IMG/VR virus record: IMGVR_UViG_3300035188_000094
Coordinates: 1-40,030 of that record
Source: a virus
DNA: 40,030 nucleotides
Direction: 5' to 3' (one strand)
Position numbers and translations under genes: made by a program. How positions within the stretch are numbered: position 1 is the first letter of the stretch; each line of letters begins with the position of its first letter. The notes under the pieces were generated by a model. That model did not search any database. It was not told where the DNA came from and was given only the letters and a program-made list of their open reading frames with translations. Below, one piece after another: positions 9,969-40,030 of this stretch.

Positions 9969-10418
9969 ATGACAACTGTTGCCAAGAGAGCCACACCTGC
10001 TGCAATTGCTGTGCTGCGCCAAGCGACAGCATTAAGACCGAAACGCAAGAAAGCCAGCGATGGTCTGCTACCATCTGCTGCTCACCTAACTCAGAGTCCT
10101 AACTCAGACCACAATACTGGCTATGCGGTAGACTTAACTCATGACCCAGACAATGACATCAATTGTCATGAAGTATACGCACACCTTAAGTCTGATAAGC
10201 GTGTCAAGTATTTAATATTTAAAGGTAAAATTTGGTCACCCGAAAAAGGCGACAGAGAATATACTGGTTCCAACAAACACAATAAACATATACATATTTC
10301 CATCAAAGATAACTGCGGTAACGATACATCACCTTGGTTTCCTTGGTTGGGAAAAGCAACAACAATAAACAAAGTGGTAGCGGCAACAAAGCCTTTACCG
10401 AAGAAGGAGAACAAATGA
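9969..10418 (+). CDS. Endolysin, M15-family peptidase
   Basis: This 149-aa protein has zinc-peptidase motifs of family M15: SDHNTGYAVDL (H48, D55) and KHIHISI (H107, H109, the latter probably the third zinc ligand). Such enzymes cut peptide bonds in cell-wall stems or cross-bridges, so it is the likely endolysin. There is no signal peptide, and export would rely on a holin. No separate wall-binding domain is seen; the Lys-rich tail (KPLPKKENK) may help wall contact. It starts 3 nt after the methyltransferase stop and ends in an ATGA overlap with the next gene. Confidence 0.85.
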   Translation: MTTVAKRATPAAIAVLRQATALRPKRKKASDGLLPSAAHLTQSPNSDHNTGYAVDLTHDPDNDINCHEVYAHLKSDKRVKYLIFKGKIWSPEKGDREYTGSNKHNKHIHISIKDNCGNDTSPWFPWLGKATTINKVVAATKPLPKKENK

Positions 10419-10627
10419 AAGATTTAATTGCTAAGTTAAAGAGCAAGAAGACTAAGGCTGCATTTAAGTCTTATGTCCGTGCTGTATTAGCATCGGCAGT
10501 AACAATGGGATTAGCACTGGCTGCTGACCTATCACCAGAGTATGCAATCCTAATCGGTTCTGTAACCGCACCATTGGCTAAATGGGCTGATAAGACCGAA
10601 AAAGAATACGGTATAGGCTCTAAATAA
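10415..10627 (+). CDS. Small membrane protein, holin candidate
   Basis: I choose the ATG at 10415 behind GAAGGAGA, giving 70 aa; the open frame upstream overlaps the endolysin and has no site. A basic N-terminus (KSKKTKAAFKSYVRA) is followed by a hydrophobic helix (VLASAVTMGLALAADL) and a weaker second one (YAILIGSVTAPLAKWA). Coupled to the endolysin stop (ATGA), it is a good holin or anti-holin candidate. It is the last gene before the terminator. Confidence 0.6.
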   Translation: MKDLIAKLKSKKTKAAFKSYVRAVLASAVTMGLALAADLSPEYAILIGSVTAPLAKWADKTEKEYGIGSK

Positions 10628-11675: not shown

Positions 11676-11938
11676 TAATCGCAATCCAATCCTATCTCAT
11701 CTATTGGTGTAGGTAAAGTAACCAACGAGCCACAATTAACACACTCACCATCTAGAAAATAAAAGGCTATTTCTCCACTTTCAAAGGCTACTATAGCCGT
11801 AAATAATTCTGAACCACATAAACATATATCACCTATTGGATTGCCACGTAAGTCCATAGCATTACTGTAATCTTTCTTAAACAAATCTTTTATTTCTTTA
11901 GGCTCTTGTGTCATCGTCTTCATCTTCTTCTTTAACAT
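11675..11938 (-). CDS. Small zinc-ribbon protein (actinophage conserved)
   Basis: The frame is up to 87 aa, but the true start is probably an internal Met at 11920 or 11911, because the first codons overlap the end of the sigma-like gene. The sequence has DLRGNPIGDICLCGSELF and GECVNCGS, a split Cys-rich metal site, followed by LPTPID. A related layout is common in actinophages. The function is not known. It lies between the sigma-like gene and FmdB-like gene, coupled at its end by TAATG. Confidence 0.65.
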   Translation of the reverse strand: MLKKKMKTMTQEPKEIKDLFKKDYSNAMDLRGNPIGDICLCGSELFTAIVAFESGEIAFYFLDGECVNCGSLVTLPTPIDEIGLDCD

Positions 11939-12563
11939 CTAAGTTATCTACATCATTATAGGTACGCCATCCACCTAGATTTCTTATTAAAGAATTAACT
12001 GCACGTTCAACTCTCTTGCGTGCACCATCAGCAGATGTGTTTAATTCTTTGGCTAACTCACTCCACTCGGAGTTATCTGTCGTAAAACGTAGCCTTAAAA
12101 TATTTTGTTTAGCCTCTGCTAACTGGTTGTAAGCCTTTTCTATATCTGACCTAAGAACTAACCAGTTATTTCCATCTGTAACTTCACCTGATTTGCCGAA
12201 CTGAAAGTTAAGGTCTTTAATTTTTGTTGGTATTTCGTAACTATCCGCCAGGATAGATGGCAAAAATGCTTCAACAACTGAGGCATCGTAATAGTATAGG
12301 TCAACCATATCGTAACCAAACTTACGGGCTTTTTCTTGCTCACAATATTTTAGTGCAGCATTACGCAATGATTTTGCGATTAGTTTTTCTTTATCTTTAG
12401 GTGGTAACTTAGACCACTCTGTATATTTATTTGGATGGGTAACAAACCACATCCATAAAATTTGTTTTATATCTGCAGTTTCAACTATAGAATATTTTCT
12501 AGAATACTCTTGGGCAAGGGAGGATACAAGCAAATTATATTCTTGTACCCATGCCTCAGTCAT
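11898..12563 (-). CDS. Sigma-factor-like protein
   Basis: This 221-aa protein has a C-terminal helix-turn-helix: WSELAKELNTSADGARKRVERAVNSLI (about residues 167-193). It resembles sigma region 4, preceded by QLAEAKQNILRLRF. The N-terminal half is helical, with AALKYCEQEKARKFGYD resembling region 2, but it is weak. The tail is very acidic (DVKEEDEDDD). It probably steers host RNA polymerase to phage promoters, perhaps with WhiB. It overlaps the zinc-ribbon gene. It could also be a terminase small subunit-like DNA-binding protein, but the gene neighbours favour transcription. Confidence 0.65.
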   Translation of the reverse strand: MTEAWVQEYNLLVSSLAQEYSRKYSIVETADIKQILWMWFVTHPNKYTEWSKLPPKDKEKLIAKSLRNAALKYCEQEKARKFGYDMVDLYYYDASVVEAFLPSILADSYEIPTKIKDLNFQFGKSGEVTDGNNWLVLRSDIEKAYNQLAEAKQNILRLRFTTDNSEWSELAKELNTSADGARKRVERAVNSLIRNLGGWRTYNDVDNLDVKEEDEDDDTRA

Positions 12564-19221: not shown

Positions 19222-19261
19222 AGAATTACTAATCGGAAGGCTATGAATAAACCATTAGTAA
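19222..19261 (-). terminator. Probable terminator after the transglycosylase cassette
   Basis: On the minus strand TTACTAATGG (19261-19252) pairs with CCGATTAGTAA (19236-19226), with one bulged base. The T-rich TTCTTTTT follows (19227-19220). The stem is A+T-rich, so strength is uncertain. It fits the end of the transglycosylase cassette (stop at 19301). No gene larger than 15 codons is seen between 19161 and 19300. Confidence 0.5.
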
Positions 19262-19300: not shown

Positions 19301-19720
19301 TTAATACCATCCTTTGGCACGCCAATGTGCCCATGCCTTTGATGGTTTTTCGTAGCGGTGCTGGATATAAGCCAGTCCCCGCTCAACTTGCAGCGGGGCT
19401 GGCGTGTGTGGTTTAGTGTTAAGCATCTGGGCTATTCCATATGCACTGGACTTAGGGTTATCTGCATGTTGTCGCCATCCAGATTCTTTACCCCAAAGTT
19501 TTGCGAGTGCACGCCATTCAGACTTGTTCCAATGTGGGTACTCCCATTTTATTAATGCTTTGGCGTATGCCTTGGCCATTGCTGGTGTCCACAAAGATGT
19601 GTTTGTGCAGTTGTCTTGTACTTGAACTGCTACTGCTGCTGCGTGTGCTGGACTGGGTAAGAATGGCGTTGACAAGAATGTTAGTAGCCAACTTAAATAC
19701 CCTGCTAATAATCTCTTCAT
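19301..19720 (-). CDS. Secreted lytic transglycosylase
   Basis: This 139-aa protein has an N-terminal signal peptide (MKRLLAGYLSWLLTFLST, cleavage near AHA at 27). A transglycosylase-type core follows: LWGKESGW (catalytic Glu probably E79), SSAYGIAQML, ERGLAYIQHRY, AWAHWRAKGWY. This arrangement is used by actinobacterial and phage wall-degrading enzymes. It would cut peptidoglycan glycan strands outside the membrane. It sits in the early strand, not beside the endolysin, and has its own signal peptide. It could act as a second endolysin, in receptor masking or in host wall remodelling. Confidence 0.75.
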   Translation of the reverse strand: MKRLLAGYLSWLLTFLSTPFLPSPAHAAAVAVQVQDNCTNTSLWTPAMAKAYAKALIKWEYPHWNKSEWRALAKLWGKESGWRQHADNPKSSAYGIAQMLNTKPHTPAPLQVERGLAYIQHRYEKPSKAWAHWRAKGWY

Positions 19721-19815
19721 CTAATAAACCTCCATGTGAGATAGCCAAAGAGTATGAGGAATGTCCAGGATTGTGATGGTGTGAGGTATGAACTCGCAAA
19801 GATTTGTTCAATCAT
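19717..19815 (-). CDS. 32-aa single-membrane-segment peptide
   Basis: The sequence is MIEQIFASSYLTPSQ then SWTFLILFGYLTWRFIR, with one strong hydrophobic segment at the C-terminus. It is coupled by ATGA overlaps at both ends, to the transglycosylase downstream and the 61-aa protein upstream. That arrangement points to a real gene although it is tiny. It could help the secreted enzyme or act as a small holin-like peptide; neither is shown. Confidence 0.5.
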   Translation of the reverse strand: MIEQIFASSYLTPSQSWTFLILFGYLTWRFIR

Positions 19816-19997
19816 TTCACCCTAACAATCTCTTGGCTATGCTTGATACCTGTATCAAACTCTAGTATATGCCATTCGCTTGGGTCTTCAAGGGCCTCAT
19901 CGCCTGCTCTATCTACATCTACATGTGTAGTTCGGCGTCTAACTTTGGCCATAATCCAGACGGTGTGTTCCCATTGTGGGGTATCTTCATCAAGCAT
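19812..19997 (-). CDS. 61-aa protein of unknown function
   Basis: The sequence begins MLDEDTPQWEHTVWIMAKVR and continues with an acidic segment (DRAGDEALEDPSEWHILEF). It has a strong site (GAGGAGGAATCC) and a start overlapping the upstream gene, and ends in an ATGA overlap. No motif is recognised. The strong ribosome site and couplings support translation. Confidence 0.55.
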   Translation of the reverse strand: MLDEDTPQWEHTVWIMAKVRRRTTHVDVDRAGDEALEDPSEWHILEFDTGIKHSQEIVRVK

Positions 19998-20163
19998 TGG
20001 ATTCCTCCTCGTTTTTTATAAGGTCGTTAACTGTTGGCTCTGGTGCTGACCAGAGTTTGCGTGGTGTGTTAGCAATTAACTCATCGTATACATCTAATAG
20101 GTCAAGCATTGCGTAGGCAAATGCTTCTTTAATTTGAAGCAGTTCTTCTTTTGTTCTTGTCAT
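19990..20163 (-). CDS. 57-aa helical acidic protein
   Basis: The protein reads MTRTKEELLQIKEAFAYAML then DLLDVYDELIANTPRKLW, and ends in an acidic tail. It is helical throughout, with no recognised motif. It begins 3 nt after the stop of the 51-aa membrane protein, and its end overlaps the next start by 8 bases. It is too short for common ORF cut-offs but fits the coupled cassette. Confidence 0.5.
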   Translation of the reverse strand: MTRTKEELLQIKEAFAYAMLDLLDVYDELIANTPRKLWSAPEPTVNDLIKNEEESNA

Positions 20164-20166
20164 TGG

Positions 20167-20322
20167 TTACCTTTGCATCTTGCGTCTGGTTGAGGCGACA
20201 TCACTCATGCGTTGAATGATTTCGTTCTGTGTCTTGATTATATAGATGCTATATCCAATGGTCAAGATGCTAGCAATAAGGGCTATCATAATACCTATCA
20301 TTGTTCCTGTATCTAGATACAT
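20167..20322 (-). CDS. 51-aa membrane protein
   Basis: The protein has one hydrophobic segment (MIGIMIALIASILTIGYSIYII, about residues 8-29) and a basic tail (STRRKMQR). Its start overlaps the previous stop (TAATG) and AAGGAG precedes it. An N-out, C-in membrane anchor is likely. Possible roles include superinfection exclusion or lysis timing; nothing proves it. Confidence 0.6.
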   Translation of the reverse strand: MYLDTGTMIGIMIALIASILTIGYSIYIIKTQNEIIQRMSDVASTRRKMQR

Positions 20323-20453
20323 TACTTGCTCCTTTTTTGTGCACGAATAGCCAACTTAGCAGGACTATATCCGTTAATAGTTCTGCCTGTTTTCTTTTGA
20401 ACTTTTGGCTTTTTTTTCCAGGCTTTGCCGTTCTTTCTATCTGTTGTTGCCAT
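20322..20453 (-). CDS. 43-aa basic peptide
   Basis: The start is ATG 20453 behind GGAGATAGC; the longer frame above it lacks a site. The sequence is MATTDRKNGKAWKKKPKVQK then KTGRTINGYSPAKLAIRAQK, strongly basic throughout, like an RNA- or DNA-binding peptide. It opens the second leftward block, just after the terminator at 20509-20556. Confidence 0.5.
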   Translation of the reverse strand: MATTDRKNGKAWKKKPKVQKKTGRTINGYSPAKLAIRAQKRSK

Positions 20454-20508: not shown

Positions 20509-20556
20509 ATAAAAAAAATTTTTGGTGGCAAGGTGAGGCACTAACCCCACCTTGCC
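20509..20556 (-). terminator. Rho-independent terminator in the leftward arm
   Basis: On the minus strand GGCAAGGTG (20556-20548) pairs perfectly with CACCTTGCC (20535-20527) around a 12-nt loop. The T-rich tract ATTTTTTTTATTTT follows near 20520-20507. It lies just after the stop of the 20563-20994 gene, so it should end the first leftward block, with some read-through or a new promoter for the cassette below. A short GAACC/GGTTC stem at 20485-20502 follows it. Confidence 0.8.
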
Positions 20557-26887: not shown

Positions 26888-27457
26888 ATGACTGCAATAG
26901 TTGGAATACAGGGTAAAGGCTGGGCAGTACTTGGCGCAGATACTTTAACCACATATACAGACAGACCTTATGTTGCTAAGGGATGCGATAAAATAGTAAA
27001 AGTTGGTGAGTATCTAATTGCAGTTGCAGGTGATGCAATTGTGGGAGATATCCTTAATAACTTATGGCAACCACCTAAAGTAATTAAGACGCAAGACCCA
27101 GATAGATTTATGATGATTAGAGTATTACCATCTATAAAACAAACTATAATAGATGGTGGATACGACCCAACACCTAAAACAAAGAATGATGATGACTCAG
27201 GTTGGGATGCATTAGTTTGTTTTAATGGAAAAATATATCAAGTTAGTGATGACTATGGGTATATGCGAGATGATAAAGGTTTATATGCAATAGGTTCTGG
27301 TGGAACCTTAGCGCTTGGTGCGTTATCAGCAATGGAGTCTGAAACTAAGACTCATGCCAAAGCATCAGGGGCTGCAAAGAAAGCAATCAATATAGCAATT
27401 CAATACAATGTGTGGTGCGGTGGTACCGCAAATGTTAAAACACAATTTACTAAGTAG
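26888..27457 (+). CDS. Proteasome/HslV-like Ntn hydrolase
   Basis: This 189-aa protein starts TAIVGIQGKGWAVLGADTLT once Met is removed. The second residue, Thr, would be the N-terminal nucleophile, exposed without a propeptide. Asp18 sits at the place of proteasome Asp17 and Lys35 (GCDKIVKVG) near Lys33. GSGGTLALGAL and a SAMESETK helix fit the later core. Canonical beta subunits and HslV share these features. In a phage between portal and virion genes it may process head or ejected proteins, or act on the host. No separate ATPase partner is seen. The activity is inferred. Confidence 0.75.
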   Translation: MTAIVGIQGKGWAVLGADTLTTYTDRPYVAKGCDKIVKVGEYLIAVAGDAIVGDILNNLWQPPKVIKTQDPDRFMMIRVLPSIKQTIIDGGYDPTPKTKNDDDSGWDALVCFNGKIYQVSDDYGYMRDDKGLYAIGSGGTLALGALSAMESETKTHAKASGAAKKAINIAIQYNVWCGGTANVKTQFTK

Positions 27458-39788: not shown

Positions 39789-40030
39789 ATGAGTAAAAAA
39801 GATTCTATTGCATTAGTTTGGTGCGACAATGGAATGGTAGATGGAAAGTTTATGCAAGGCGTAACAGATGTATTGTTAAAGTCTGGCGTAGAGTTTGCTA
39901 CATCATTGCGAAGTCAAGGCAATCAAATTGCTAGACAAAGACAGACAGTAATCGATTACTGGTATGACAAGACTGATTATGAATGGCTACTATGGGTAGA
40001 CTCAGATGTAGTAATTAGTCCAGAAAAGTT
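39789..40030 (+). CDS. Glycosyltransferase-like protein, 5' part (continues at base 2)
   Basis: The start is ATG 39789 behind GGGG. The N-terminus reads SKKDSIALVWCDNGMVDGKF, then a helix with ATSLRSQGNQIARQRQTVID, and the frame passes into WLLWVDSDV (DSD at 71-73) across the circular closure. The full protein is 246 aa, made of 39789-39982 plus 1-547. See the entry at 1-547 for the family and motifs. Confidence 0.75.
   Translation, partial: MSKKDSIALVWCDNGMVDGKFMQGVTDVLLKSGVEFATSLRSQGNQIARQRQTVIDYWYDKTDYEWLLWVDSDVVISPEK
39983..40030. repeat. Right copy of the 48-bp terminal direct repeat
   Basis: This is a perfect repeat of bases 1-48, lying inside the coding sequence of the wrapped glycosyltransferase gene. 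A circularly permuted, headful-packaged genome would give such an assembly overlap. It agrees with the absence of any recognisable cos-type end. Confidence 0.9.

Follow-up and report, generated by a model that had tools for sequence, protein, structure and literature searches.

A predicted exported transglycosylase encoded opposite the lysis genes of a probable freshwater actinophage, overlapped by the gene of a membrane microprotein

Why would a phage encode a predicted secreted wall-cutting enzyme on the strand opposite its lysis genes, behind a row of very small genes? This question was raised by a virus record of 40,030 bases (IMG/VR record IMGVR_UViG_3300035188_000094; the whole stretch was analyzed and is termed the window herein) with a G+C content of 39.7%. 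A direct terminal repeat of 48 nucleotides (nt) at positions 1 to 48 and 39983 to 40030 indicates that the genome is probably complete. Its terminase (TerL) is 62% identical to those of the Planktophila phages LanE43AprE7 and F5 (OX376640 and OX376641), the former of which was isolated on 'Ca. Planktophila' according to the main text of its description (PMC10202952), so that the host of the window phage is probably a related freshwater actinobacterium. Minus-strand genes run from about 21.3 kb to 10.7 kb and include those for DUF4192, DUF932/TIGR03299, and DnaB/AAA proteins and a sigma-like factor. The plus strand carries the structural genes (with an N4-gp56-type capsid) and the lysis genes, which are candidates by motif and hydropathy. 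One encodes a putative endolysin of 149 amino acids (aa) without a signal peptide (positions 9969 to 10418, plus strand; PHROG 32486), in which an H...D...HxH pattern presumably marks an M15-peptidase-like enzyme, and the other a holin-like membrane protein recognized by hydropathy (10400 to 10627, plus strand; PHROG 37724); both groups have no function assigned in PHROGs. The candidate endolysin showed 67% identity to copies in the LanE43AprE7 and F5 records, and a PDB sequence search with it gave no match.

Six open reading frames (ORFs) lie on the minus strand between positions 20453 and 19301. They encode A43 (20322 to 20453; 43 aa, very basic, net charge +14), B51 (20167 to 20322; 51 aa, with one N-terminal membrane segment [KD19 2.31] and a basic tail), C57 (19990 to 20163; 57 aa, acidic), D61 (19812 to 19997; 61 aa, conserved and soluble), E32 (19717 to 19815; a predicted single-pass membrane microprotein of 32 aa), and TG (19301 to 19720; a predicted exported lysozyme-like transglycosylase of 139 aa). 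C57 and D61 have no assigned function, and D61 had no match in Pfam, in PHROGs, or among named phages. The first-pass annotation of this DNA had described five small genes of 32 to 61 aa before a transglycosylase, two of them with membrane segments, and we found the ORFs placed as it claimed, with one hydrophobic segment each in B51 and E32. It had also described the genes as chained by overlaps, which holds for four junctions (A43/B51, 1 nt; C57/D61, 8 nt; D61/E32, 4 nt; E32/TG, 4 nt in the form ATGA) but not for B51 and C57, which are separated by 3 nt.

Relatives of all six genes were found in a sample collected with TG as query (the best 80 of 114 viral stretches encoding a TG relative, plus the window copy, giving 81 loci), in which the gene counts are lower bounds, several loci being incomplete. 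TG was present at 81 loci, E32 at at least 69, B51 at at least 66, D61 at at least 63, C57 at at least 62, and A43, found in a minority, at at least 27. Pooled dN/dS values were 0.10 for A43, 0.31 for B51, 0.16 for C57, 0.16 for D61, 0.28 for TG, and 0.50 for E32, the last being the highest of the six and having few synonymous changes behind it. All six genes are under purifying selection, and together with the relatives at up to 81 loci, the dN/dS range of 0.10 to 0.50 shows that the ORFs are genes and not chance. The uneven counts, from 27 for A43 to 69 for E32, did not bear out the earlier treatment of the five small genes as one set; the cassette is lineage-specific, a local form of the longer-lasting pairing of an E32-type microprotein with TG. 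The C57-D61 junction (around position 19990), where some relatives carry inserts of varying length, seems to be a hot spot for small genes.

The description of the last gene product as a transglycosylase bearing a signal peptide was confirmed at the level of domain and motif. TG matched NCBIfam NF052397 (aggregation-promoting-factor C-terminal-like domain) with 69.2 bits (cutoff, 40) over residues 68 to 139 and the full profile, and it matched transglycosylase and tape-measure families in PHROGs; its score against Pfam SLT (PF01464) lay below the gathering cutoff (16.7 versus 21.3 bits), and a PDB sequence search returned no match. The signal peptide covers approximately residues 1 to 27 and ends in an AxA site (...PSPAHA followed by AAVAV), and the catalytic domain covers residues 44 to 139. 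Cleavage was called by the AxA rule, with the site at residue 18 or later, and not by a trained predictor; the cleavable Sec signal peptide thus predicted is a trait of secreted auxiliary lysins of the Kayvirus Tgl and fOg44 Lys44 type. An alignment of 38 diverse sequences contained 19 invariant columns, including E79, and the motif around E79 was likewise invariant; this residue, which we take to be the expected catalytic glutamate, is the probable catalytic residue of TG.

An AlphaFold2 model built from the 38-sequence alignment had a mean pLDDT of 81.7. Foldseek found no match for it at an E value of 0.001, and an earlier model from 19 sequences had given no meaningful structure match. In VIA-align, rows 1 to 46 for the 38-sequence model were all lysozymes, lytic transglycosylases, or the phi29 tail lysin (phi29 gp13, MltF, and Cj0843 among them), with Z scores of 4.5 to 6.0 against at most 3.5 for unrelated chains; as Z stayed below 8 throughout, we read the model as a lysozyme-type fold with caution. 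In bacteria, the TG domain was found at 23 loci, all in Geodermatophilus or Blastococcus, the match covering the domain only, and no close host source for TG was seen among these 23.

The position of TG was followed in a second sample of 240 terminase-anchored loci, collected from three starting points without reference to TG (some contigs are shared with the TG-query sample); TG was counted only on the strand opposite the terminase, with a score floor of 20 bits and a weakest match of 28 bits. TG lay near TerL and on the opposite strand in all 71 related contigs whose flank upstream of TerL reached 5.5 kb or more, relatives of LanE43AprE7 among them. When the flank required was lowered to 4.5 kb, the count was 79 of 82, and the three misses had short flanks and belonged to the group in which TG lies farthest from the terminase. 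The claim that the cassette stands on the strand opposite the lysis genes is thus correct for the window, where it lies with replication and recombination genes and opposite the structural and lysis genes, and TG keeps to the strand opposite TerL in the relatives.

E32 contains one hydrophobic segment, for which its charges predict an N-out/C-in orientation. In the TG-query sample (best 80 of 114 plus the window), its gene overlapped TG by 4 nt at 65 of 66 loci and D61 by 4 nt at 62 of 62. We then considered a wider sample obtained with three added scans, in which cleavage sites were accepted from residue 18 onward and small ORFs inside longer ones were excluded. It held 206 distinct TGs, 175 outside and 31 inside a LanE43AprE7-like set (L272 to L351), 6 more having been dropped with less than 200 nt upstream. 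Outside that set, a short hydrophobic ORF ended at the TG start for 154 of 175 TGs (with a 4-nt overlap in 142 of the 154), and an AxA-type cleavage site was present in 157 of 175. Inside the set, the numbers were 0 of 31 for an E32-like ORF and 2 of 31 for a cleavage site, and a WhiB-like gene (read by eye) shares 4 nt with the TG start at most of the loci that lack the E32-like gene. Because this set mostly lacks the cleavage site and has the WhiB-like gene in place of E32, neither the E32-TG pair nor secretion of TG as a free enzyme is universal.

The idea that E32 is required only with signal-peptide cleavage was dropped. Among 124 distinct TGs of the first sample, 92 had both cleavage site and E32-like ORF, 25 had neither, 7 had the cleavage site only, and none had the ORF only (outside the LanE43AprE7-like set: 89 both, 4 neither, 0 mixed). 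Among the 206 of the wider sample, 143 had both, 36 neither, 16 the cleavage site only, and 11 the ORF only, and a tree of the catalytic part of TG, with five supported independent pairs, showed no significant link between the two traits; some calls of a missing ORF are doubtful (at L361 the sequence lies inside a 95-aa frame, and at L450 the start is disputed). Separately, synonymous change was low over positions 19630 to 19815, which cover E32 and the first TG codons (pS 0.12 to 0.31). An RNA element over E32 was rejected (consensus fold z of −1.5 versus column shuffles; no match in Rfam), and the other two reading frames are closed.

An intrinsic terminator on the minus strand (20509 to 20556; −25.6 kcal/mol, z of −4.6) separates the cassette from accessory genes upstream. 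A G+C-rich hairpin with a T run was found at this place in 47 of 53 relatives versus 34 of 583 random stretches; the place is conserved while the sequence differs between lineages, so that the cassette is shielded in part from its upstream neighbors. After TG, an A+T-rich hairpin on the same strand (19222 to 19261; −12.3 kcal/mol, z of −2.4) is a possible weak terminator, and a scan for hairpins with at least three G-C pairs and a T run, which also misses the window's own hairpin, found none there in 48 relatives. The flanking terminators of the first-pass annotation therefore include one strong and one weaker case.

Early expression, also proposed there, fits the strand and operon position of TG, from which TG would be made early, and the constancy of that place (71 of 71). 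Promoter searches did not add to this: a sigma-70 scan gave 10 promoter-like sites versus 10.8 in shuffles, though Nanopelagicales promoters may differ from the consensus, and the divergent intergenic region contained no sigma-70 promoter-like site in 42 distinct sequences including the window. A candidate internal promoter in B51 (20265 to 20237; 11 of 12 letters) was discarded because synonymous changes alter its −10 letters in relatives and the scan did no better than chance, and ACGAGTCGAA before A43 was discarded as a repeated element, occurring once in the window.

A direct published precedent exists for the suggestion that TG takes part in lysis control rather than in late lysis alone. 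Kayvirus Tgl is reported to be a secreted, muralytic lytic transglycosylase, whose gene can be transcribed early, by host RNA polymerase, from a tested host-type promoter and is placed three genes away from lysK within the lysis region, and lysis of Staphylococcus aureus by it requires nisin, which causes loss of the proton motive force (PMC7150955). As far as that description goes, TG resembles it in being a small signal-peptide-bearing lysozyme-like transglycosylase second to a late cytoplasmic endolysin, and TG plausibly works like it. Unlike Kayvirus tgl, the TG gene belongs to a replication operon well away from the lysis genes, is coupled to a membrane microprotein, and has no promoter found.

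Nearer phages offer partial parallels. LanE43AprE7 and F5 share the opposite-strand TG near TerL and differ in the WhiB-like gene that overlaps TG in place of E32 and in the AxA site, mostly absent from their set. Streptomyces phages encode stand-alone predicted exported transglycosylases that carry a signal-like segment at the N terminus (Camvirus Endor1 gp52 and Provolone gp54; Karimacvirus Wofford gp39), with TG-domain matches of 79 to 87 bits in Camvirus and 75 bits in Wofford. The Camvirus gene lies beside thyX in the nonstructural arm; compared with TG, the Camvirus and Wofford enzymes have longer linkers (ORFs of 184 to 195 aa), and an E32 partner was not seen in the neighborhoods compared (Endor1, Provolone, Wofford, and two tape-measure-type records, of 223 matched named-phage records). 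The Beephvirinae Streptomyces phage Immanuel3 has a TerL about 43% identical to that of the window and a leftward replication arm that adjoins TerL, but its genome gave no TG match at an E value of 0.1 or better. The main texts of the Planktophila phage paper (PMC10202952) and the Endor1 paper do not name a transglycosylase, and a literature search largely confined to papers outside subscription returned no report of an E32-TG-type gene pair in freshwater actinophages.

The reading that we favor, to which we give about an even chance, is that TG serves as an auxiliary lysin, exported by the Sec route, made early, and held in reserve until the late holin acts. TG would be translated from the early operon, coupled to the one-helix microprotein E32; its signal peptide would thread it outward and be cleaved, and TG would then wait in the energized wall with little effect. 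Once the late holin collapsed the membrane potential, TG would cut the glycan strands and the late cytoplasmic endolysin (the candidate at 9969 to 10418) the peptide bonds, and the wall would fail rapidly. E32 would probably be located next to TG, on the outer face of the membrane, and set the place or time of its action. This proposal draws on the NF052397 match, the lysozyme-like model, the invariant E79, the AxA site, the constant place (71 of 71), the Kayvirus Tgl precedent, and the separate late-strand candidate lysis genes without signal peptide. Against it count the negative promoter scans, the distance that separates TG, in contrast to Kayvirus tgl, from the lysis genes, the LanE43AprE7-like set (cleavage site in 2 of 31, E32 replaced by the WhiB-like gene), and the late endolysin and holin being candidates by motif and hydropathy, unassigned in PHROGs. 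A more specific form, which we consider unlikely, is that E32 and TG form a bipartite early wall device in freshwater actinophages, in which cotranslated E32 restrains the exported glycan cutter and thereby sets lysis time from the early operon, with an early enzyme for glycan and a late one for peptide. Phages of this kind are relatives of those lysing 'Ca. Nanopelagicales', which are among the commonest lake bacteria. A wall enzyme retained in every relative examined, and placed on the replication strand instead of with the lysis genes, would mean that the division of lysis between early and late genes, as known for Kayvirus Tgl, belongs to the core of a major natural phage group, which could be tested with the cultivated E7/LanE-43 pair.

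Other roles for TG were weighed against its use as a reserve lysin. TG might act during infection and not in lysis, low-level early wall cutting aiding growth, nutrient access, or turgor relief in a very small, slow host, as Rpf-like or autolysin-like enzymes would. The early-strand place, the lysozyme-like fold, and the related domain stretches in Geodermatophilus and Blastococcus genomes would suit such a role, but it leaves all lysis to the late endolysin, and Kayvirus Tgl, the only tested analogue found, was interpreted as a lysis factor; we consider it rather improbable, and wall remodelling, which the first-pass annotation had offered, found no support here. That E32 is instead a holin or pore that releases or activates TG, the two forming a complete early-encoded lysis pair, is suggested by the coupling of a one-helix protein to a lysin gene, as in holin-endolysin order. 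This is distinctly unlikely, given that no E32 was found for 21 of 175 TGs or for any of the 31 in the LanE43AprE7-like set, that TG carries its own export signal, and that a holin active early would end the infection prematurely.

Superinfection-exclusion genes are usually accessory and variable. An exclusion pair of E32 and TG, which would alter the wall or receptor and block injection by a second phage, agrees with the early-strand place and the membrane and wall location, but the presence of TG in 71 of 71 relatives with enough flank makes a core function likelier than an accessory one, and Pfam and PHROGs show no similarity to known exclusion proteins. We therefore found no support for the exclusion role proposed earlier and rate it very unlikely. 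Finally, the nearest named-phage matches of TG include tape-measure proteins, whose lysozyme domains would provide a model for a TG packaged in virions to help DNA enter the cell; with a signal peptide present and the gene encoded on the other strand, apart from the structural genes, this is extremely doubtful.

Two further genes of the window concern the late strand. At the far end of the predicted early operon, a minus-strand gene (11898 to 12563) encodes a sigma-factor-like phage protein (PHROG 354) that could serve as a switch for the late strand. Amid the head genes, the product of positions 26888 to 27457 (plus strand) matched the proteasome-subunit family PF00227 with 33.8 bits (cutoff, 22.4) and is perhaps a prohead protease.
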